DNA of 64,000 nt, from NCBI GenBank assembly GCA_025056865.1, contig JANWVO010000052.1, positions 62,001 to 126,000 on the forward strand. The letters run 5' to 3'. The stretch comes from Bryobacteraceae bacterium (lineage in GTDB: Bacteria > Acidobacteriota > Terriglobia > Bryobacterales > Bryobacteraceae). Positions 12,049 through 32,906 of this stretch are shown here, in pieces. A program made the translations under genes and the position numbers. The notes under the pieces are model-generated. The model saw only the letters and a program-made list of their open reading frames with translations. It was not told where the DNA came from and ran no database searches. The first letter of the stretch is position 1, and each line of letters starts with the position of its first letter.

Positions 12049-14442
12049 TCACATCACCAGCGCGTTGAAGAAAAGCTTGAGCGTGAGCCAGCTCTGGCCG
12101 CGGTATTGGGGGCGGAAGCCGAACAGGATGGCGCGGCCCTGGCCCACTGGCATGTCGAGCAGGGCAGGCTTGCCCGCCAGGTGTTTTTCTCCGAGCAGCC
12201 AGCCCGAGGCGAGCACGCCATTGTCGGGGTAGCGCAGCACGGCGGCGCCGACGTTGCCTTCCGGTTCCCAGACGGGGCTCGTCTCATTCCAGATGGTGAA
12301 CTCCGGCGGCAGGCCGAGCGTGAGGGATCCGCCCTGGTCCACGCGCACGTTCAGCAGCGAGCCGGGGCAATAGAAGTCCCGCGCGGGCACTTCGGCGACC
12401 AGATTGCGGGCCTTCACTCCGAGGTGCCGCACGGCGTACTGGCCGGAGTGATTGAAAAAGACGACGCGCCCGCCGGCGGCGAGAAACTCGCGCAGCGCCG
12501 TGGCGCCCTCTTCGCCAAGCCCGCCCGTGTATTCCTCGGGCATCGAGCCCGGGCTGTGGCCGGAGTCGATCGTGTTGGCGCCCATGTCGGCGATGACGAT
12601 CACATCGAACCGCTCTCGGAGACGCCCGGCGCGGATGTCCTGGTTGGTGGCCGAAACATATTCCCAGCCGAAATGTTCGAGGATCCAGCGGGTCCAGCCC
12701 TCGTCCATGGAGGGAACCCAGGGCTTGTAGACGGCGATGCGCGGCCGGCGCAGGGGCTGGAACTCCTCCGAGGGACGAGAGCCGATGGCGAAGTCGCCGG
12801 TCTTCGGATGACGGAAAACAGGCCGCGCCGATTTCCAGGCCTCGTTGACGGCGCGCCAGGAATCGCTGTCCGCCGCGGAGAGCGGGCGCGCCGGAAAGCG
12901 GAACTCCCGCACGCGTTCGAGCTTCGCCTCAAACGGAGCGTCGATGGTGCGGACGTCCACGCCAAGCAGCAGCGGCAGCGTGTGCGCGGTCACATCGTAG
13001 GGACGTTTGGGGGGGCCGCCCGGATACTGGCGCAGGTCAGGATACTTCTGCCGCTCGAGCAGCGCCTTGGCGAACGCGGAGTAGGGCTGCTGCATGCGGA
13101 TGACATAGCTGCCTGCCGGGTAGCGCACGCCGCCCGCCTCAAAGGGCTGCGCGGCGCGTTCGACTTCCACCATCGCAAAGTCCATGGTTTCCAGCAGCCG
13201 CCGCGCGGCGCCGGGATCGGCCTGTTCGGCCGGCACGACGAAGGCAAACGGCGACGTCCGCGTGGCGGCGCGGCGCTGGATGTCGTAGAACGACCGCAGG
13301 AAGAACTCGCGCCGCACGGCTGCCGTGTCAAGCAGGCTCTCCATGGCGATGAGCTGGTCTGTGACGATGTCGCGCAGCGTCCACCGGCCGCCGGGCCAGG
13401 GCTCGAGATGATTCCAGGAGCTTTCGCGGGGCGAGTAGCCGGTGCCCTGTTGCGGAATCCGCGCCGGATCCACGTCGATCGGCGTGGCGATGCGTACGCT
13501 GGCCGATTCGCTGAGAATGCGCAGACCGCCGTGATAGCTCTGGTAGTGGCGGGCGGGCGTCCAGTAGTCATAGACGGCATTGACCACGACGCCCTTGCGG
13601 CCGGCGGCGGTGAGGTCGGCGGCCATCGTCATGCCCACCATGTTGCAGAGCTGCGCGATGAGCGGATCGATGTTCGGCTCGATCGGGTCCAGCCACGGCG
13701 GCACGAACATCCGCGCGCCGTACGGGCCCATCTGGTGGACGTCATAGACGATCTGCGGCCGGAAAACATTGTGCAGTTTTTCGATGACCGCGCGGTTTTC
13801 GGCCTGGGTGAAGAAATACCAGTCCCGGTTATTGTCGTGGCCGACATACTTCTGGTAAAGCTCGGGCGGGCTGGTCCCCTCGAATTTCGTTCCCAGAGTG
13901 CGGCGGTACCAGGCGGTGACGAGGTCAAGCCCGTCGGGATTGATGGAGGGCGCGAGCACCAGGATGACATTGCCCAGGATCCGGAGCACCTTCGGGTCCT
14001 GCGACGTGGCCAGCTTCCAGGCAAATTCGACCGCCGTGTGCGTGGAGGCGATCTCGGTCGCGTGGACACTGCAAGTGATCAGCACCACGGTCTTGCCTTC
14101 GCGGGCCAGCCTTTCGGCTTCGCCCGGCGGCGTGGCCCGGGGATCGGCCAGCCGGCGCTGGATGCCGAGGTATCTGTCCAGGTCCTTCAGCGTCTCCGGC
14201 GCCGAGATCACCGCCGCGATCATCGGGCGGCCTTCTGTCGATTTTCCATACTCGAGGAATTTCACGCGCGGCGAATTCTTCTCGAGCAGCCGGAAATAGG
14301 ACACGACTTTGTCCCAGTCGAGCACCGTGCGGTCGGCGCCCATTTCATGCCCGAAGTGCTCCCGGGGCGCAGGCGGCTGCGCCAGGGCGGGAACCAGGAG
14401 AAGGGCCAGCGATGCAAGCAGTCGTCGGCGGGGGATTCTCAT
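12049..14442 (-). CDS. Secreted M14-family zinc carboxypeptidase
   Basis: 797 residues with an N-terminal signal (RRRLLASLALLLVPALAQ). Residues about 40-330 form the M14 catalytic domain: zinc ligands H127 and E130 in CSVHATEIAST and the third ligand H236 in YDVHQMG, with substrate-binding NPDG (168-171) and NNRDW (204-208). The remaining 450 residues are unassigned; a segment around FDVIVIADMG and ALREFLAAGGRVVFFNHSG resembles a class I glutamine-amidotransferase-like (ThuA-like) accessory fold, which is common behind M14 domains in acidobacteria. It should hydrolyse C-terminal residues of peptides or murein stems outside the cytoplasm. It overlaps the preceding isomerase gene by four bases, ending a long minus-strand run. 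It converges on the RND-TolC gene with 85 bases between them; no clear terminator is visible there. Confidence 0.88.
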   Translation of the reverse strand: MRIPRRRLLASLALLLVPALAQPPAPREHFGHEMGADRTVLDWDKVVSYFRLLEKNSPRVKFLEYGKSTEGRPMIAAVISAPETLKDLDRYLGIQRRLADPRATPPGEAERLAREGKTVVLITCSVHATEIASTHTAVEFAWKLATSQDPKVLRILGNVILVLAPSINPDGLDLVTAWYRRTLGTKFEGTSPPELYQKYVGHDNNRDWYFFTQAENRAVIEKLHNVFRPQIVYDVHQMGPYGARMFVPPWLDPIEPNIDPLIAQLCNMVGMTMAADLTAAGRKGVVVNAVYDYWTPARHYQSYHGGLRILSESASVRIATPIDVDPARIPQQGTGYSPRESSWNHLEPWPGGRWTLRDIVTDQLIAMESLLDTAAVRREFFLRSFYDIQRRAATRTSPFAFVVPAEQADPGAARRLLETMDFAMVEVERAAQPFEAGGVRYPAGSYVIRMQQPYSAFAKALLERQKYPDLRQYPGGPPKRPYDVTAHTLPLLLGVDVRTIDAPFEAKLERVREFRFPARPLSAADSDSWRAVNEAWKSARPVFRHPKTGDFAIGSRPSEEFQPLRRPRIAVYKPWVPSMDEGWTRWILEHFGWEYVSATNQDIRAGRLRERFDVIVIADMGANTIDSGHSPGSMPEEYTGGLGEEGATALREFLAAGGRVVFFNHSGQYAVRHLGVKARNLVAEVPARDFYCPGSLLNVRVDQGGSLTLGLPPEFTIWNETSPVWEPEGNVGAAVLRYPDNGVLASGWLLGEKHLAGKPALLDMPVGQGRAILFGFRPQYRGQSWLTLKLFFNALVM

Positions 14443-22059: not shown

Positions 22060-23109
22060 ATGAGACTTGGAACGACTGCCGCCCTCCTTCTGTTGGGCGG
22101 CATGCTGGCGCAGGCCGATTTCAGCTATCAGCAAAAGACGCAGATCACGGGCGGATCGCTCGTCAAGATGATGAAGATCCTGCCTGGCGCTGGCAAGGCA
22201 GTGGAGCCGCAATACAGCCGGCTCTACTTCCAGAAGAACCGGATGGCCACCGTGACCGACCGCGAGGTGGACATAATCGACCTTGCCGCCGGGCGGGTGA
22301 TCCACGTCGATCTGGAGAAGAAGACTTACTCCGTGATCACCTTCGAGGAATTCCGCAAAGCGATGGACGCGATGGCGCAGCAAATGGCCAAACAGATGGG
22401 CAGCGGCCAGCAGGCGGTGATGGACATGCGGCTGTCGGTGAAGGAAGGAGGCGAGACCCGGACCATCCAGAATCTGCCGGCGAAGCTGATGAAGCTGCTG
22501 CTCGAGATGGACATGAAGGACCAGAAGAGCGGGCAGACGTTCACTTCCACGATCGAAATCGATGAATGGCGGACGCCGGCCGTGCCGGGCTATGACGAGG
22601 TCCGCGCCTTCTACATGGCCTACGCCGAGAAGGTAGGCATCAGTCCGGAGTCTCTGCGGACGATGCGGATGGCGATGGGGCAGGCGGGAACGGCCGAGGG
22701 GATGGCGAAGCTGGCCCAGGAAGCGGCGAAGCTGGAAGGCGTGCCGCTGGTTCAGGTGACCCGGATGACGGGCCTGGGAGTTGACATTCCCGACATCCAG
22801 ATGCCGAGCGGCGCGGAGATGGGCGGCGCCGCGGCCGAATCAGCCGCAGGCGCGGCGCTGGGCCGTCTGGGCCGCCTGGGCGGCCTCGGCGGGTTCGGCC
22901 GCCGCAAGAAGCAGGAAGAGCCCCCGCCTGCTCCAAAGAAGGCGGAGCCTGTCGCCAGCGCGCAGAAGAGCGTGCTGCTGGAGGCGACGACGGAGCTGTC
23001 GGATTTCTCCACCGCGGCCGTGGACGCCTCAAGGTTTTCCATCCCCGCGGGGTTCCGGGAAGTGGAGCATGAGATGAAGAAGATCCTCCGCGAATCCTCA
23101 AAAAAGTAG
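22060..23109 (+). CDS. Secreted hypothetical protein
   Basis: 349 residues with a signal peptide (MRLGTTAALLLLGGMLAQA). The body has a strand-rich N-terminal half (SRLYFQKNRMATVTD, DIIDLAAGRVIHVDLEKKTYSVITFEE written in parts) suggestive of DUF4412-like or outer-membrane-lipoprotein-sorting folds, then a helical Met-rich region (MAKQMG, TMRMAMGQAGTAEGMAK). A low-complexity stretch rich in Gly, Leu and Ala around residues 265-290 precedes KKQEEPPPAPKK and a conserved-looking end FSIPAGFREV. I cannot assign a function. A strong Shine-Dalgarno AAGGAGGAG precedes the start, and an intrinsic terminator follows, so it is a single-gene transcript. Confidence 0.75.
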   Translation: MRLGTTAALLLLGGMLAQADFSYQQKTQITGGSLVKMMKILPGAGKAVEPQYSRLYFQKNRMATVTDREVDIIDLAAGRVIHVDLEKKTYSVITFEEFRKAMDAMAQQMAKQMGSGQQAVMDMRLSVKEGGETRTIQNLPAKLMKLLLEMDMKDQKSGQTFTSTIEIDEWRTPAVPGYDEVRAFYMAYAEKVGISPESLRTMRMAMGQAGTAEGMAKLAQEAAKLEGVPLVQVTRMTGLGVDIPDIQMPSGAEMGGAAAESAAGAALGRLGRLGGLGGFGRRKKQEEPPPAPKKAEPVASAQKSVLLEATTELSDFSTAAVDASRFSIPAGFREVEHEMKKILRESSKK

Positions 23110-23135
23110 CTGGAATTGCAGGTGGAATCCCACTG

Positions 23136-23163
23136 GCGGGCGCGCCGCGCGCCCGCTTTTTTT
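23136..23163 (+). terminator. Intrinsic terminator after the secreted hypothetical gene
   Basis: A perfect 9-bp G+C stem GCGGGCGCG (23136-23144) and CGCGCCCGC (23148-23156) with a 3-base loop is followed directly by seven T residues (23157-23163). It lies 26 bases after the stop codon and isolates that gene from the MoxR/TraB-like pair downstream. Confidence 0.9.
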
Positions 23164-23213: not shown

Positions 23214-24032
23214 ATGACGGTGGAAGTGGAAGGCGTCCTGCTTCATCTCAGCCACCCGGTCGAGTACGCGGCGGAATGGATCGGCCAGGAGGAGGTGCTG
23301 CGCGAGCTCCTGGCCGCCTGGATGACGCTCGGCGAAGGCGACCTGCCGATGAACCCCCGCATCACGGGCAAGCCAGGCGTAGGCAAGACGACGCTGGCTT
23401 ATACGGCGGCAAGGCGGCTGGGGCGCGAGGTCTACATCATGCAGGGCACGGTGGACACGCGCCCGGAGGATCTCATCGTTCAGCCGGTGGTGGAGGGGCC
23501 TGGCACGCTCCGCTATGTGGCCTCGCCGCTGGTGACGGCGATGCTGCGCGGGGGCGTGGCCATCCTCGATGAGGCCAACCGGATGCCGGAAAAGAGCTGG
23601 GCGAGCCTGGCTCCGCTGCTGGATGCGCGCCGCTATGTGGAGAGCATCGTGGCGGGAATCAAGATTCCGGCGCATCCTGAGTTCCGTCTGGTGTGCACAA
23701 TGAACGAGGACGCCTCGACGTTCGATCTTCCGGAGTACATTTTTTCGCGCCTTCAGCCGCAAATTCATGTCGATTTTCCGGAAATGGAAGAAGAACTGGA
23801 AATTCTGCGGCAGAATCTCCCGATGGCGGAGGAGGAAATTCTGTACAGGATTTCCCGGTTCCTCCAGGCGGCTCACGAGATGGACGAGCCGTATACCGTC
23901 CGCGACGGCATCAACATCGGCCGGTACGCGCTGCGGCTGATGAGCGCCGGGCGGCAGCCGGACCCGGAACGGGCGCTGCGGTTCGCCGTCCGCCACGTGC
24001 TGGGCGAGGAGGCGTTGCGGTATGCCGGCTGA
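23214..24032 (+). CDS. MoxR-type AAA+ ATPase
   Basis: 272 residues. Walker A ITGKPGVGKTT near residue 50, Walker B GGVAILDEANRMPEKSW near 115, sensor 1 VCTMNEDAST and an arginine-finger region IFSRLQPQ. The loop between Walker A and B (TVDTRPEDLIVQPV) is the 'T-x-x-T-x-P-x-D-L' type of MoxR/RavA ATPases. MoxR proteins act as chaperones that assemble or activate partner proteins, usually with von Willebrand factor A proteins. No vWA gene is adjacent; instead an 11-base overlap couples it to a large protein of unusual type. GGGAG precedes the start. Confidence 0.9.
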   Translation: MTVEVEGVLLHLSHPVEYAAEWIGQEEVLRELLAAWMTLGEGDLPMNPRITGKPGVGKTTLAYTAARRLGREVYIMQGTVDTRPEDLIVQPVVEGPGTLRYVASPLVTAMLRGGVAILDEANRMPEKSWASLAPLLDARRYVESIVAGIKIPAHPEFRLVCTMNEDASTFDLPEYIFSRLQPQIHVDFPEMEEELEILRQNLPMAEEEILYRISRFLQAAHEMDEPYTVRDGINIGRYALRLMSAGRQPDPERALRFAVRHVLGEEALRYAG

Positions 24033-25851
24033 GGAGCCGTTAGCGGATCTGCTCGGGCTCCGGCGCGGCGCATGGACGTTTCTGCCCGTGGCGCCGCGGC
24101 GGATCGAGTTCGCGGCCGCCATCCGTCAGCGCCTGCTGGCACTTCGGCCCGCAGTTGTTGCGGTGGAGCTTCCGCGCGAAGCGGGCGGCATGGTTCTGGA
24201 GGCGATCGCGGCGCTGCCGGAATTCAGCGCCGTGCTCGCCGTCGGCGGCGGAGAGGAAGAGGAAGATAGCGTTGCGGCAGTGATCGAGCCGGGGGATGCG
24301 CTCAGCGAAGCCGTGCGCACGGCGCGCGAGCTGGGGGCGCGCATCGAGCTGATCGGCTCGGCCGCGGCGCCGCTGTTTCCGCACGCCGACGCGTATCCGG
24401 ATCCTTGTGCGCTCGAATTCATCCCATACGAGAAATACATCGAACAGTATTTCCTGACGCCGCCGGACTCGCCGGGTGCCGGACAGCGTGCCCTCGCCGC
24501 TGCGGCGGGCCTCCAGAGGCTCGACCGGAGTGCCAGCACGGCTGTGGTCGTCACGCTGCCGGTCTTCGTGCGGCTGCTTTCGCTGCTGGCCCGCGAGCAG
24601 CGGCAGGCAATGCCCGCCTGGCGCGGCGCGTTCCGGCGCGCGCCCATCGCCGCCGGGTGCCTGGGGGATGTCACGGAAGATTGCCCTTACCTTCAGGAGC
24701 GGTACGAGGACTGGCGGACACAGGCCGGCCCGGAAGAGGGCAGCGGGCCGCCCCCGCGGCGGATGTGGCTGGGCGAACTCTGGCGCGAAGCACAGGAAAA
24801 CTACCTGGCCATCTACCGGGGCGAGCTCGCGCCCTGGCAGCGCAGGCAGGCTTCGCGGTTCCTCGAAAGGCTGGTGCGCTTCGATGGCGCCATTGCGCCG
24901 TCGCTGTTCGATCTCATCGCCGCGGCGCGCGGCGTGGTAGACGACAACTTCGCATATGAGATTTGGCGGCTGGGAACGACGCCGCGCTATCACAGTCCCC
25001 CGCCGGACAGCGAGCCGGCCCGGCTGCGGCCGGAGCAGGTTTTTGCGGCAACACGGAGGCTGCGGTTGCGGCAGCGCTATGAGCGGGAGAAGCGGCGCCT
25101 GGTGCCCCGGGCCTGGAAGCGGCGCCCTCCGCGCGACGTGCGCGGCTGGGCCGCGCAATTGGGCGGCGACGCCATTTGCAGCTACCCACCCGAAGACATC
25201 GTCATCGAGGACTATGGCCGCTTCCTGCGCCAGAAAGCGAAGACCATGCTCGGCGAGGATCGCTCGCGCGTGGAGCCTTTCACGACCAGCGTCCTGGACG
25301 GCATCGACCTGCGGGAAACGATCCGGCGCTGGCACGAGGGTCGGCTGTATGTGCGCGAGACTGAGCGCGTGAGCGGCGATACGGGCGCAGTGGTCGTCAT
25401 CTTCGATGAAGACCCCGAGGACCGCTACCCCTGGCTGACCACGTGGCTGGGCGAGCACTCCAATGAGAGCGACATGGCGTTCTATTCCACGCCGCCATTC
25501 GACAATCTTGTGGGGCCAGGCATCGGTCGCGCCGAATACGGCGGATTCATGATGACGCTGCCGCCGGGCCGGCTGATGGACGTCTGGACGGATCCCGACT
25601 ACGATTTTGCCGAGTCGAAGCCCGAGCGGCTCCTGTTGGCCGCGCTGGACTATTCGCTCGAGCGGCATGTCGTCTACGTAGGGCCGAAGCCGCCGCGGGC
25701 GATCTTTCGCCAGATCGCCGCCCGGCTGGGCCGCCAGATCGTCTACATTCCGCTGGGGGCTCTTTCGCCGGAGAAGCTGCGGAAGATCCGCGTGCTGCAT
25801 GTGCTGGACAGCCACGAGCGGCGCCGGATCGCCCCGCGCTACATCTGGTGA
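24022..25851 (+). CDS. Large TraB/DUF5682-like protein coupled to MoxR ATPase
   Basis: 609 residues, no signal peptide or membrane helix. Residues about 25-180 look like the TraB/PrgY/DUF5682 superfamily: a helix then LALRPAVVAVELPREAGG, a strand FSAVLAVGG, an acidic loop, and GARIELIGSAAAPLFPHAD. Residues about 230-360 are helical and Arg-rich. Residues about 380-609 form a separate region with ICSYPPEDIVIEDYGRFLR, LDGIDLRETIRRWHEG, GAVVVIFDEDPEDRYPW, WLGEHSNESDMAFYSTPP, EYGGFMMTLPPGRLMDVW and LEVL-free end LHVLDSHERRRIAPRYIW; I do not recognise it. DUF5682 proteins are known partners of MoxR ATPases in predicted ternary systems, which fits the 11-base overlap. Catalytic activity is unknown. 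Confidence 0.6.
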   Translation: MPAEEPLADLLGLRRGAWTFLPVAPRRIEFAAAIRQRLLALRPAVVAVELPREAGGMVLEAIAALPEFSAVLAVGGGEEEEDSVAAVIEPGDALSEAVRTARELGARIELIGSAAAPLFPHADAYPDPCALEFIPYEKYIEQYFLTPPDSPGAGQRALAAAAGLQRLDRSASTAVVVTLPVFVRLLSLLAREQRQAMPAWRGAFRRAPIAAGCLGDVTEDCPYLQERYEDWRTQAGPEEGSGPPPRRMWLGELWREAQENYLAIYRGELAPWQRRQASRFLERLVRFDGAIAPSLFDLIAAARGVVDDNFAYEIWRLGTTPRYHSPPPDSEPARLRPEQVFAATRRLRLRQRYEREKRRLVPRAWKRRPPRDVRGWAAQLGGDAICSYPPEDIVIEDYGRFLRQKAKTMLGEDRSRVEPFTTSVLDGIDLRETIRRWHEGRLYVRETERVSGDTGAVVVIFDEDPEDRYPWLTTWLGEHSNESDMAFYSTPPFDNLVGPGIGRAEYGGFMMTLPPGRLMDVWTDPDYDFAESKPERLLLAALDYSLERHVVYVGPKPPRAIFRQIAARLGRQIVYIPLGALSPEKLRKIRVLHVLDSHERRRIAPRYIW

Positions 25852-28749: not shown

Positions 28750-30639
28750 ATGAAACGGTTTCTGGCGGGCATCTCGGCCGTTCTGATGCTGGCAGCCGCC
28801 GCTTTTGCCCAGGCGCCGCCAACTTACACCATCGGGAATTTCGCCGGCAACGGCGCGGCCGGCTTCGCCGGCGACAACGGCAAGGCGCCGGAGGCGCAGT
28901 TGAATTATCCGCTGGGCCTGGCCATCGACAGGTCCGGCAACATCTACATCGCCGACCAGATCAACCACCGCATCCGCCGCGTCGCGCCGGACGGCACCAT
29001 CACGACAGTGGCCGGCTCCGACAGCCAGGGCTCGACGGGCGACGACGGGCCGGCGACCAGCGCGCGGCTGAATTATCCTTCCGGAATTGCCGTCGACAGC
29101 TCTGGCGCGCTGTACATTACCGACACGATGAATCATGTGATCCGCAAGGTAGTGGTCGGCGGAAACATCACGAAATTCGCCGGCTCGCGCGGCGTTTCCG
29201 GCTTCCGGGAGACCAACTCGAAGGGCGAATATCTCGACGCGAAAGACGCCGAGCTGAACGCACCAACCGGCATCGCCATCGATGCGGCGGGCAACATTTA
29301 CTTCTGCGACACGCGCAATCACCGCGTGCGCAAGATCGGCACCGATGGGAAGATCCGGACCATCGCCGGCACGGGCGAAAAAGGCGAGACAGGGGACGGC
29401 GGCGACGCGCTGAAAGCGAAGCTGAATTCCCCGACAGGCGTGGCGGTGGACTCTGCCGGCAACGTATACATCGCCGACCAGTTGAACCACCGCATCCGCA
29501 AGGTGGATGCCAATGGCATCATCACCACGGTGGCCGGTACGGGCCTTCCCGGCTACTCCGGCAACGGCGGGCTGGCCACCCGGGCCCAGCTTTTCTATCC
29601 CTGCTGCATTGCGGTAGACGCGCAGGGCAACCTGTTCATCGCCGACCGCACCAACAACCGCGTGCGGCGGGTGGACGCGGCCACGGGCACGATTTCGCTG
29701 GTGGCCGGCACGGGACGCTTCGGCGATGATTACGATGGACGTCCCGCCGAGCAGGCGCGGCTGCGGTTTCCCATGGGATTGGCAGCCGACCCGCAGGGCC
29801 GCATTTACTTCAGCGACAATGCCAACAGCCGGGTGAAGATGCTCACGCCGGCTGCGCAGGGTCCGACGGGCGGGCTGGCCGCTCCTCCCTCCATCCGCGC
29901 CGATGGCGGCATCGCCGGCGACCCGAATTTCGGCGCGCCGCTCGCGGTTGCGCCGGGCGCATGGATCGAGATTTACGGAACGAACCTGGCCCCCTCCGAG
30001 CGCGAATGGAACGCCGGAGACTTCGCCGACGGCCGCGCTCCGGCGACGCTCGAGGGCACGACGGTCTGGATCGATGGCAAGCCCGCGCCGCTGGCCTACG
30101 TCAGCCCTTCGATGATCCGCGCCCAGGTTCCGCTGGACATCGACGGCTCGGAGGCCACAGTCGTGGTGGAAACGGCGGCGGGCCGCAGCGCGCCGCGCAC
30201 GCTGGGGATCGATCCGTCGGCAGCAGCGATTCTTGCCCCCGCAAAGCTGCGGATCGCCGGAAAGCAGTTCGCGGCGGCGGAGATTGCCAGCGAGGGCGCC
30301 TACGCCCTGCCGCAGGGCGCGCCGCCAGACCTCGCCGCCCGCCCCGCGCGTCCCGGCGACACGCTGGTGCTGTACGGCATCGGCCTTGGCGAGGTGACTC
30401 CGCGCGTCGACGCGGGCCAGGTGGCGCCCGGGCCCACCCAGGTGACGGCCTCGATGGTGGTGCGCATTGGCGGCATGCCTGCCGAAGTCCTTTACGCCGG
30501 GCTTTCCCCCGGCAAGGTGGGGCTGTACGAGATCCGCGTCACGGTGCCGCCACTGATGGAAACCGGGGCCGTTCCGCTGGAAGTGCTTGTCAACGGCAGG
30601 CCTGTTCCGCAGGAACTCTTCATCGCCGTGCAGCAGTAG
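28750..30639 (+). CDS. Secreted NHL-repeat protein with C-terminal TIGR03437 domain
   Basis: 629 residues with signal MKRFLAGISAVLMLAAAAFAQ (written here as a description; the cleavage is after AFA). Six NHL propeller blades follow, each with a pattern like GNIYIADQINHRIRRV and ITTVAGTG, spanning residues about 25-375. The TIGR03437 domain occupies about 395-629: PGAWIEIYGTNLAP, VWIDGKPAPLAYVSPSMIRA, GDTLVLYGIGLGEV and EVLYAGLSPGKVGLYEI. TIGR03437 is a domain described from Solibacter. The start at 28750 has GGAG upstream and gives a normal signal peptide; an in-frame ATG at 28693 overlapping the previous stop would add 19 polar residues. Probably co-transcribed with the preceding NHL gene. 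Confidence 0.87.
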   Translation: MKRFLAGISAVLMLAAAAFAQAPPTYTIGNFAGNGAAGFAGDNGKAPEAQLNYPLGLAIDRSGNIYIADQINHRIRRVAPDGTITTVAGSDSQGSTGDDGPATSARLNYPSGIAVDSSGALYITDTMNHVIRKVVVGGNITKFAGSRGVSGFRETNSKGEYLDAKDAELNAPTGIAIDAAGNIYFCDTRNHRVRKIGTDGKIRTIAGTGEKGETGDGGDALKAKLNSPTGVAVDSAGNVYIADQLNHRIRKVDANGIITTVAGTGLPGYSGNGGLATRAQLFYPCCIAVDAQGNLFIADRTNNRVRRVDAATGTISLVAGTGRFGDDYDGRPAEQARLRFPMGLAADPQGRIYFSDNANSRVKMLTPAAQGPTGGLAAPPSIRADGGIAGDPNFGAPLAVAPGAWIEIYGTNLAPSEREWNAGDFADGRAPATLEGTTVWIDGKPAPLAYVSPSMIRAQVPLDIDGSEATVVVETAAGRSAPRTLGIDPSAAAILAPAKLRIAGKQFAAAEIASEGAYALPQGAPPDLAARPARPGDTLVLYGIGLGEVTPRVDAGQVAPGPTQVTASMVVRIGGMPAEVLYAGLSPGKVGLYEIRVTVPPLMETGAVPLEVLVNGRPVPQELFIAVQQ

Positions 30640-30686
30640 CGGCCGCAGGGCTTCCGGCGCATGCACCCGCCCGGCCCGCGCGCCCG

Positions 30687-30692
30687 TATACT
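30687..30692 (+). promoter_or_regulatory. Possible -10 element for the hyp operon
   Basis: TATACT 18 bases before the GTG start of hypF. The surrounding GTATACTGGAATT is nearly identical to GTAAACTGGAATT at 43921-43933 before the TonB receptor. No clear -35 is seen. Confidence 0.35.
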
Positions 30693-30710
30693 GGAATTAA
30701 GGATATAGAG

Positions 30711-32906
30711 GTGCGAATTCGGGTCCGCATCACCGGCGCGGTTCAGGGCGTGGGCTTCCGCCCGCATGTCTTCCGGCTGGCGGCGCGGCATGGTGTGGCC
30801 GGATTCGTGCTGAATTCGGTGCAGGGCGTGCTTGTGGAAGCGGAGGGCGGCGATGGCCGGGTGCGCGCTTTTGTCGACGAACTTCGCGCCTCGCCGCCAC
30901 CGCTGGCCGTCATCGCGGGCTTCGAAACATTTGAAGTGGCGGAGCGCGGCGAAAAGGAGTTCCGCGTCGAGACGAGCGCGGAGGAGGGCGAGCCGGAAGC
31001 CTTCCTGCTGCCGGATCTTGCCCTGTGCGGCGAGTGCCGCCGCGAGATTTTCGATCCATCCAACCGCCGCTACCGCTACCCGTTCACGACCTGCACGCAT
31101 TGCGGGCCGCGTTACTCGATCGTCGCTTCCCTGCCCTACGACCGTCCGCGCACCACGATGGCGGACTTCCCGATGTGCCCGGCCTGCGAGGCTGAGTACC
31201 ATGATCCGGCCGACCGGCGCTTCCACGCGCAGACCAACTGCTGCCCGGCCTGCGGGCCGCACATCGAGCTCTGGGGGCGGGACGGGCGCGTCGCCGCTTC
31301 GCGGGAGGAAGCCCTACAGGCCGCGGCCAACGCTATTCGGGAAGGCCGCATTCTCGCGTTGAAGGGCATCGGCGGCTTCCATCTCATTTGCGATGCGCGC
31401 AACCGGGAGGCGGTCCTTGAACTCCGGCGGCGCAAGCATCGGCCGGCAAAACCTTTCGCCGTGATGCTGCCGGATCATCCTCACCCGCTGCTGCACACGC
31501 CGGCCTCGCCGATCGTGCTGGTCGAGAACACGCTGGCCCTTCCGGAAGAAGTTGCTCCGGGCAATCCGCTGCTCGGCGTGATGATCCCTTACTCGCCGTT
31601 GCACGCGCTGCTCCTGGCCGAGCTGGGTTTTCCCATCGTGGCCACCAGCGGAAATCTGACAGACGATCCAATCTGCCATGACGAGCGCGAGGCGCTCGTG
31701 CGGCTGGGCTGCGTGGCTGACCTGTTCCTCGTGCACAACCGCCGCATTCTTCGTCCGGTGGACGACAGCGTCGTGCGGGAGATCGGCGGCGAGCCGGTGC
31801 TGCTGCGGCGTGCCCGCGGCTATGCGCCCCTGCCGCTGGAGTCGCCTCGTCCGCTGCCCGAGCTGTTCGCCACGGGAGGCCACATGAAGAATACGGTGGC
31901 CTTCTCCCGGAACAGACGTGTTTTCCTGTCGCAGCACCTCGGCGATCTGTCGACTCCGGCGGCGCTGGCCCATCACCGGCGCTCGATGCGGGATTTCCAG
32001 AGCATCTACGGAGTGCGCCCGGCAGCGGCCGTCTGTGATCTGCACCCGGACTACGGCTCGACGGCGACAGCGCGCGAGCTGGGCGTCCCCGTGATCGGCG
32101 TGCAGCACCACGTGGCGCACCTGTTTTCGGCCGTGCTGGAACACGGGCTGGAGCCGCCGGTGTTTGCCGCCTCGTGGGACGGCACGGGCGCCGGCCCGGA
32201 CGGCGCGGTTTGGGGAGGCGAGTTCCTGGTGTGGGAGGGGGCGCGCGTCCGCCGCACGGGACACCTGCGCCCCTTCCGCCTGCCGGGCGGCGAGCAGGCG
32301 GTGCGCGAGCCGCGCCGCGCGCTGCTCGGCGTGGCGTGGGAGATGGGCAGGCCGGAGCTGGCGCGGCCGCTGTTTGCGGAGGGCGAGTGGACCGTGCTGG
32401 TCCGGATGCTGGAGCGCGGACTGAACAGCCCGTGGACGACGAGCGCCGGCCGGCTGTTCGACGCCGCCGCCGCGCTGCTCGGCCTGTGCGGGAAGCAGAC
32501 TTTTGAGGGCGAGGCGGCGATGCGGGTGGAGTTCGCGGCCCGCGGCGCGCGGCTGCCGGCCGCCGCGCCGGAGATCGAACAGGATTGGGCGCCGCTGTTT
32601 GAAGCATTGGCGGACCATTCTGTTTCCGTTCCGGAGCGCGCCGCGCTGTTCCACGCCGCCCTGGCCGCGGCGGTGGCGCGCGCCGCGGCGCGGGCTGGCG
32701 CTCCGCAGGCGGTGCTGACGGGAGGATGCTTTCAGAACGCCCTGCTGGCGGAGCTGGCCGCGGAGAAGCTGCGCGGCGCGGGCTTCCGCGTCTTCCTGCA
32801 CCGCGCCGTGCCGCCGAACGACGGCGGGCTGGCGGCGGGGCAGTTGCTTGCGGCAGGCTGGGAGGTGAAGCTCGATGTGCCTGGCGATTCCTGGCGAGAT
32901 TGTTGA
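30711..32906 (+). CDS. hypF: Hydrogenase maturation carbamoyltransferase HypF
   Basis: 731 residues. Acylphosphatase domain (ITGAVQGVGFRPHVFRLA) at the N-terminus, two C-x2-C...C-x2-C zinc fingers (CGECRREIF...CTHCG and CPACEAEYH...CCPACG), a YrdC-like domain (KGIGGFHLICDA, RKHRPAKPFAVM) and a Kae1/TobZ-like domain (LGDLSTPAALAHHRR, VQHHVAHLFSAVLEHG, SWDGTGAGPDGAVWGGEF). HypF makes thiocarbamate on HypE from carbamoyl phosphate, the source of the cyanide ligands of [NiFe] hydrogenases. The GTG at 30711 is chosen because AAGGA lies seven bases upstream and the acylphosphatase domain begins there. First gene of an eight-gene overlapping operon. Confidence 0.95.
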   Translation: MRIRVRITGAVQGVGFRPHVFRLAARHGVAGFVLNSVQGVLVEAEGGDGRVRAFVDELRASPPPLAVIAGFETFEVAERGEKEFRVETSAEEGEPEAFLLPDLALCGECRREIFDPSNRRYRYPFTTCTHCGPRYSIVASLPYDRPRTTMADFPMCPACEAEYHDPADRRFHAQTNCCPACGPHIELWGRDGRVAASREEALQAAANAIREGRILALKGIGGFHLICDARNREAVLELRRRKHRPAKPFAVMLPDHPHPLLHTPASPIVLVENTLALPEEVAPGNPLLGVMIPYSPLHALLLAELGFPIVATSGNLTDDPICHDEREALVRLGCVADLFLVHNRRILRPVDDSVVREIGGEPVLLRRARGYAPLPLESPRPLPELFATGGHMKNTVAFSRNRRVFLSQHLGDLSTPAALAHHRRSMRDFQSIYGVRPAAAVCDLHPDYGSTATARELGVPVIGVQHHVAHLFSAVLEHGLEPPVFAASWDGTGAGPDGAVWGGEFLVWEGARVRRTGHLRPFRLPGGEQAVREPRRALLGVAWEMGRPELARPLFAEGEWTVLVRMLERGLNSPWTTSAGRLFDAAAALLGLCGKQTFEGEAAMRVEFAARGARLPAAAPEIEQDWAPLFEALADHSVSVPERAALFHAALAAAVARAAARAGAPQAVLTGGCFQNALLAELAAEKLRGAGFRVFLHRAVPPNDGGLAAGQLLAAGWEVKLDVPGDSWRDC

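Follow-up and report, generated by a model that had tools for sequence, protein, structure and literature searches.

Which protein does a MoxR ATPase work with when no vWA gene recurs beside it? Motors of the MoxR type are found widely, and most of the partners known for them are vWA proteins. In the part of one publication available to us, MoxR ATPases are described as usually having a vWA cofactor gene close by (PMC3893208). The question is raised by a locus in a stretch of 64,000 nucleotides from a Bryobacteraceae bacterium (contig JANWVO010000052.1, positions 62,001 to 126,000; hereafter the window, to which all unprefixed coordinates refer). Here, the open reading frame (ORF) of a MoxR-type AAA+ ATPase of 272 amino acids (23214–24032, + strand; ORF and Pfam assignment) runs into that of a 609-residue protein, P2 (24022–25851, +), and the two share the 11 bases 24022–24032, as an earlier note on this DNA had pointed out. 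It is near certain that MoxR and P2 form a conserved two-gene unit. Our main reading, to which we assign a probability of roughly 45%, is that this unit is a two-gene MoxR protein-remodelling machine, in which P2 would be the dedicated adaptor and the role of the vWA partner would survive, much altered, in the P2 tail.

In a class sample of 299 genomes, P2 is found in 74, namely, 63 of the 67 genomes of its own family, one of eight in the second family of the order and ten from a more distant family. MoxR, counted at E≤1e-50, also occurs in 74 genomes, and because the two genome sets are identical (Fisher p 4e-72, a value that ignores relatedness), a chance neighbourhood can be rejected. The matched stretches adjoin on the same strand with a spacing of −8 to +59 nt in 71 of the 74 genomes. 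The remaining three are G261, where the pair is divided between two contigs and P2 reaches a contig end; G252, with 2.8 Mb between the genes on a single contig; and G029, with the genes on different contigs. In its own family, the pair comes with a single MoxR per genome at this threshold, except in G117, where MoxR is in two pieces. The source genome holds one P2 and one close copy of MoxR, with four more places that match MoxR weakly (E 4e-17 or worse). In G117, P2 itself is broken into two open pieces (L119:452-2271, +) and MoxR is split over two contigs.

A closer survey covered 66 loci, 65 of them with P2 at E≤1e-20. MoxR accompanies P2 at 57 of these 65 loci, always upstream and on the same strand, at a distance of up to 60 nt in 47 cases and of 89–2065 nt in ten. 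Among the eight P2 loci without MoxR, two are truncated where their contig stops (L116, L124), and the other six genomes hold a close MoxR elsewhere (G029, as well as G362, G487, G524, G635 and G886 at E≤3.2e-113; the G635 copy is on the same strand as P2, ~7 kb upstream). Moreover, the distance matrices of MoxR and P2 are strongly correlated across 85 pairs (Mantel r 0.86, reached by 0 of 2000 permutations), which shared descent alone would also give. The earlier note had suggested an undescribed two-gene assembly and had set repeated MoxR pairing of homologues against homologues scattered without MoxR. The pairing is indeed repeated, all 74 P2 genomes of the class hold MoxR, and no published description of the pair was found, which is weak evidence given that the search was limited to the open part of PubMed Central. 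At one locus (L177:5229-5916, −), MoxR and P2 are separated by genes for a HEPN protein (PF05168, 1.5e-31) and for a nucleotidyltransferase (PF01909, 2.6e-10), resembling an inserted HEPN-MNT toxin–antitoxin pair.

The pair also extends to other acidobacterial families and beyond. In the deltaproteobacterial phylum (the phylum of L005, titled Deltaproteobacteria), the P2 profile matches 64 of 345 genomes, of which 53 have strong P2 matches, ten only short N-terminal matches to frames of 390–560 amino acids and one a divergent match. The corresponding figure in the window's own phylum is 20 of 297 genomes (15 strong, one divergent, four N-terminal only). Furthermore, a Neochlamydia plasmid holds the pair, annotated as an AAA family ATPase and a hypothetical protein. 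A divergent branch of P2 consists of proteins of 778–782 amino acids (L117, L148, L231) encoded directly after a MoxR relative. One genome, G892, has two copies of this long form (L231:3256-6487 and L148:3942-7128), each directly behind its own MoxR relative, and near the divergent pair of L117 lies a gene for a 927-residue protein (L117:383-3166, +) that combines an AAA module with matches to the RyR domain (PF02026, 3.6e-16). No phage record matched P2. An IMG/VR contig (L116:125-6954) has P2 at its very start, followed by phage-structural-looking genes, including one 804-residue ORF with a right-handed beta-helix match; this contig is probably host DNA beside a prophage.

The identity of the ATPase, called a MoxR in the earlier note, is confirmed by the Pfam cut-offs of both AAA_5 (77.6 versus 22 bits) and AAA_3 (33.5 versus 27 bits). 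It carries a Walker A motif, GKPGVGKT (residues 52–59; 23367–23390, +), and a Walker B-like ILDE (residues 117–120; 23562–23573, +), and such a domain above its curated cut-off together with Walker motifs is what we take to define a MoxR AAA+ ATPase. The closest solved structures by sequence are the Midasin AAA modules (4e-23), NorQ (1.2e-13) and CbbQ (3.2e-9). The score against the GvpN model in the NCBIfam scan, 40.7 bits, is far below the cut-off of 266.8.

By itself, P2 of the window matches nothing in Pfam at E≤10, in NCBIfam or PADLOC at E≤1, or in PHROGs at E≤0.01, and it would add a new family to the protein databases. Its N-terminal domain (residues 14–230; 24061–24711, +) is of the TraB/ChaN/EreA type. 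Although the window P2 alone gives no hit to PF01963 (TraB_PrgY_gumN), the P2 profile extends to ordinary TraB proteins, and all seven of those scanned belong to this family. DUF5682 (PF18934) has no match in the source genome or in the window P2 and matches only two of 40 P2 homologues, one of them just above the cut-off (26.1 versus 26 bits) and confined to the surroundings of the second histidine motif; hhalign aligns residues 26–192 of P2 with E. coli YehM, a DUF5682 protein, at a probability of 63.5%. The structure model of full P2 has a mean predicted local distance difference test score (pLDDT) of 85.8 and a predicted template modelling score (pTM) of 0.62. Foldseek returned nothing for it at E≤0.001, and a second-look comparison gave ChaN (Z 6.9, 141 residues), HopBA1 (Z 6.9, 141 residues) and EreC (Z 5.7, 150 residues), below top rows occupied by a Tetrahymena complex IV subunit (Z 8.9–9.4). 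Thus, of the TraB/DUF5682-like N-terminus proposed earlier, the TraB part holds, whereas the window P2 is not a DUF5682 member and has lost the TraB active-site motifs. Like the TraB/PrgY/gumN (TIKI) proteins, P2 has an N-terminal domain related to them in sequence and probably in fold; unlike them, it fuses this domain to a middle part modelled as helical (residues 246–324; 24757–24993, +) and, across a linker (residues 325–382; 24994–25167, +; 355–384 below pLDDT 50 in the structure model), to a C-terminal core.

According to the part of PMC6254334 that we could consult, enzymes of the TIKI family depend on a conserved pair of His and Glu, although the catalytic residues are missing from one or more members of the family. 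Among 97 distinct full-length P2 homologues, to which the counts below refer unless stated otherwise, 52 carry both of the motifs LPxxH and GxxH and 45, the window P2 included, carry neither; no homologue has just one of the two. The glutamate at position 49 is kept in 93 (52/52 with the motifs, 41/45 without). On a quick tree built from residues 246–609 only, the motif state needs four changes, at least three of which are forced by well-supported branches. Motif-less P2 proteins comprise the window's whole class and, in the deltaproteobacterial set, L121/L179/L180 and L120/L122, while L123, next to L120/L122, keeps the motifs. Since the two motifs are present or absent together and are lost jointly on the tree, they look like one site that was lost whole several times (~3–4), with P2 and MoxR persisting. 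Ratios of nonsynonymous to synonymous substitution rates (dN/dS, NG86 method) for nine pairs, several with saturated dS, range from 0.066 to 0.394 in the N-terminal part and from 0.013 to 0.132 in the C-terminal part. The largest contrast, 0.394 (24061–24711) versus 0.042, separates the window from its nearest relative L008, and constraint on the N-terminal domain is therefore lower in this genus; N-terminal values of other motif-less pairs are 0.066–0.236. It is very probable that the N-terminal domain is TraB-type and, in the window's lineage, not catalytic in the usual way.

The best conserved part of P2 is the C-terminal core (residues 383–609; 25168–25848, +), with mean pairwise identities of 56% in the group with motifs and 67% in the motif-less group, while the N-terminal part reaches 40% and 45%, respectively. 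All of 34 checked C-terminal positions are kept in 91 of the 97 homologues; L145 differs at five and five others at one each. C386, E478, E482, D484, E535 and H593 are invariant, three of them (E478, E482, D484) within the GEHSNESDMAFY block (residues 477–488; 25450–25485, +). The earlier note had remarked on conserved but unmatched blocks in the last 230 residues, and the blocks it quoted are present and conserved, with no described family matching. The protein closes with a hydrophobic conserved tail, APRYIW (residues 604–609; 25831–25848, +). P2 ends 5–9 residues from position 604 in 96/97 homologues, the last three residues being aromatic or similar, aliphatic and W in 59/97, and such an end would suit a tail contact with a ring. 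The isolated model of the C-terminal domain is confident (pLDDT 88.5, pTM 0.80), and no known fold was recognised in it, with nothing at E≤0.001 in PDB or viral models; the best second-look match is creatine amidinohydrolase (Z 3.9, rmsd 4.3 over 110 residues), and many RNase H-like rows follow at Z 2–2.7. This outcome is no proof of a novel fold. The acidobacterial genome G844 (L168, L171) has two P2 genes, each with its own upstream MoxR, the second of which is the L145 protein with five otherwise invariant C-terminal positions changed.

Known MoxR systems offer several points of comparison. In E. coli, yehL-yehM-yehP-yehQ encode, in this order, MoxR, DUF5682, VWA_CoxE and SWIM proteins, and locus L082 shows the same order for MoxR, DUF5682 and an ORF of vWA type. 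The window pair is similarly arranged, with MoxR followed by a TraB/DUF5682-like part and then by a part with a possible CoxE-type stretch preceding the metal ion-dependent adhesion site (pre-MIDAS), but it comprises only two genes, not four, and has neither a SWIM gene nor an intact vWA domain with DxSxS; unlike YehM, P2 is not a DUF5682 Pfam member. The MoxR of the window is also similar in size to NorQ, one of its nearest solved relatives. In the parts of PMC9976466 and PMC13036017 that were accessible, the NorQ partner NorD is a single large protein in which a linker joins an N-terminal domain to a C-terminal domain that binds the ring, bears a finger and has a functional C-terminus. P2 has a comparable layout, its C-terminal domain being a candidate ring binder. 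The finger entering the NorQ pore comprises residues 403–448, and the last two NorD residues are needed for co-purification, as stated in the excerpt of PMC13036017; the vWA metal motif is required for function and not for NorQ binding, as stated in that of PMC9976466. Judging from these published residue numbers, and not from a comparison with the NorD sequence, the finger would correspond to the pre-MIDAS stretch. NorD differs from P2 in having an intact vWA metal motif, the accessible text describes no TraB-like domain for it, and NorQ/NorD serves iron insertion. The vWA-MoxR-VMAP and iSTAND ternary systems share with MoxR-P2 a MoxR-centred operon; however, MoxR-P2 has no separate vWA and no third component beside the pair, the VMAP and iSTAND models not having been searched by name.

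By analogy with these families, MoxR of the window probably forms a hexameric ring, and P2 would be its dedicated adaptor. The C-terminal domain of P2 may engage the ring, with residues 425–464 acting like the NorD pore finger inserted into NorQ and the conserved hydrophobic C-terminus sitting on the ring like the NorD tail, while the N-terminal TraB-like domain may hold the client. In lineages with both histidine motifs, that domain is a possible hydrolase; in those without, such as the window's, it would be a non-catalytic holder. P2 might then unite the roles of yehM and yehP in one chain, the presumed vWA part being much changed and its DxSxS gone. If a conserved pair can do without a vWA gene of its own, this would reveal what coupling really requires of the partner, namely, the finger and the C-terminus rather than the metal site. 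Likewise, the joint, repeated loss of the histidine motifs with the rest of the machine kept is a natural experiment, through which the role of the obscure TraB/DUF5682 proteins beside MoxR becomes testable.

The proposed vWA ancestry of the core hinges on residues 425–464 (25294–25413, +), which resemble the pre-MIDAS part of CoxE/YehP vWA proteins (D429-x-R431-x-T433-x-R435, then the strand VVVIFDED). The four residues named are conserved in 96, 96, 95 and 97 of 97 homologues, respectively; DxSxS is absent, and the aligned FDEDP keeps D462 in 88/96 and D464 in 93/96. In hhalign, the C-terminal domain first aligned with YehP at 'DFKSTLRANLQHWHPQHGKLYIES' (probability 1.9%, P 0.025). We then used a template of 15 CoxE/YehP-type vWA proteins, including E. 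coli YehP and L082 (seven of the 15 are >30% identical to their first row in alignment A4, which also contains others at 19–51%). Against it, the same stretch, extended to the metal-site aspartate, scores 26.1 (P 0.0076) when two divergent homologues are included and 27.0 (P 0.0056) with three, a score reached by 0/400 column permutations (mean 14.4, maximum 24.8), although the hhalign probability is only 6.6%. Controls with a reversed template and with the P2 N-terminus score 13.6 and 14.0. Descent of the C-terminal domain from a vWA partner is a tentative proposal, somewhat short of even odds. The earlier note had held that vWA and SWIM partners are missing here. This is correct in that the pair has no recurring neighbour gene of either type, but for vWA it may be only half right, as the P2 C-terminal domain weakly shares the pre-MIDAS stretch.

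A number of observations weigh against our reading of MoxR-P2 as a remodelling machine with a vWA-derived adaptor. When the three divergent homologues are left out, the score is 22.9 (P 0.022) and one of 150 column permutations is as high. The resemblance covers ~62 columns, and global alignment fails (probability 0.1%). With the pre-MIDAS part removed from the template, the score is 20.8 in another register, and the remaining vWA domain does not align. The vWA idea arose from YehP itself, and YehP and L082 make up two of the 15 template rows. The C-terminal model has strands, not the vWA helix, after the aspartates; no vWA chain is among the PDB structural matches listed for it, and two phage VWFA-domain proteins among its viral fold matches (E 0.79 and 1.6) are too weak to count. 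In addition, the window MoxR scores 28.5 bits with YehL at only 23% identity over 196 columns. A rival explanation is that the C-terminal domain is unrelated to vWA and represents a separate MoxR-partner fold, its D-x-R-x-T-x-R likeness being due to convergence or chance. Neither VWA_CoxE (PF05762) nor any other vWA Pfam family hits any of 40 P2 members, the profile match is weak and local, and the second-look structural matches, all of Z under 4, are mostly RNase H-like or other folds. Set against this are the permutation result with the divergent branch included and the agreement of the matched stretch and of the gene and domain order with yehL-M-P. We regard a separate fold as a serious candidate, short of even odds. 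Somewhat more doubtful is the broader picture of a vWA-free MoxR machine, an ancient two-gene unit of Acidobacteriota, deltaproteobacteria and Chlamydiota, whose single partner chain would join a TraB-type client module, repeatedly turned into a non-catalytic holder, to a ring-engaging domain of undescribed fold.

Whether P2 is the adaptor of MoxR rather than its client is about evenly balanced. As a client, it would be either an enzyme or a cofactor protein, with a conserved C-terminal site (C386, E391, D392, E396, E432, E478, E482, D484, E535, H593) that MoxR would assemble or load with a metal, in the way that MoxR proteins mature other enzymes. Many polar positions of the core are invariant or nearly so, conservation is highest in the core for both motif groups, and of 30 genomes searched with VWA_2, 27 match and three, all with the pair, do not (G507, G545 and G580, on which VWA_CoxE was not run). 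However, such conservation would also be expected where a domain contacts a conserved ring, and no known enzyme fold is recognised in the core; a known housekeeping enzyme, a match to which in the C-terminal half would have spoken against the proposal of the earlier note, was found in none of Pfam, NCBIfam, PADLOC, PHROGs or PDB sequences. The client explanation in this specific form is less likely than not in our estimate. Clearly less probable still is a role in defence or conflict, with P2 as an effector that MoxR would deploy. Other MoxR-centred multi-gene systems have been proposed as conflict systems, as stated in the accessible part of PMC7159879, one copy of the pair is on the Neochlamydia plasmid, and the strong matches outside the home family are patchy (53/345 and 15/297 genomes in the two phyla). 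Conversely, the pair is present in 63/67 genomes of its own family with one MoxR each (G117 again in two pieces), the C-terminal core is conserved and not diversifying, no PADLOC model fits P2, and neither a phage record matching P2 nor a recurring defence neighbour was seen, the latter in the loci compared.

Single-linkage clustering of neighbours at the 66 loci, with gene calls that are crude ORF picks, gave no third gene travelling with the pair. The largest other neighbour cluster covers 12 loci; its six scanned members are three response regulator-HD proteins, two sigma-54 activators and one protein without a family, and for this reason the cluster was taken for a lump of common regulators and not for a third component. 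Clusters of four loci stem largely from close relatives, one genome being in the set twice (L121, L174). Individual pairs may nevertheless have a vWA gene nearby; at L004, a vWA-like ORF (13240–14220 of that locus) is found ~3.4 kb downstream on the other strand, without recurrence.

At the boundary ahead of the pair, a terminator-like hairpin of 10 pairs, nine of them G-C, followed by a T run, occupies 23135–23157 (+). It was described in the earlier note as a strong terminator isolating the pair. The hairpin does exist, but because it comes directly after the stop of the upstream gene at 23109, it is probably the terminator of that gene, and it adds little, as the scanned region has three terminator-like sites versus 2.3 ± 1.5 in shuffles. 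No sigma-70-like promoter was found in the scanned region. Beyond the downstream neighbours of the pair, the window encodes a HypF-like carbamoyltransferase (29961–32906, +) with a PF22521 match (1.2e-68), HypF fingers and an acylphosphatase domain.

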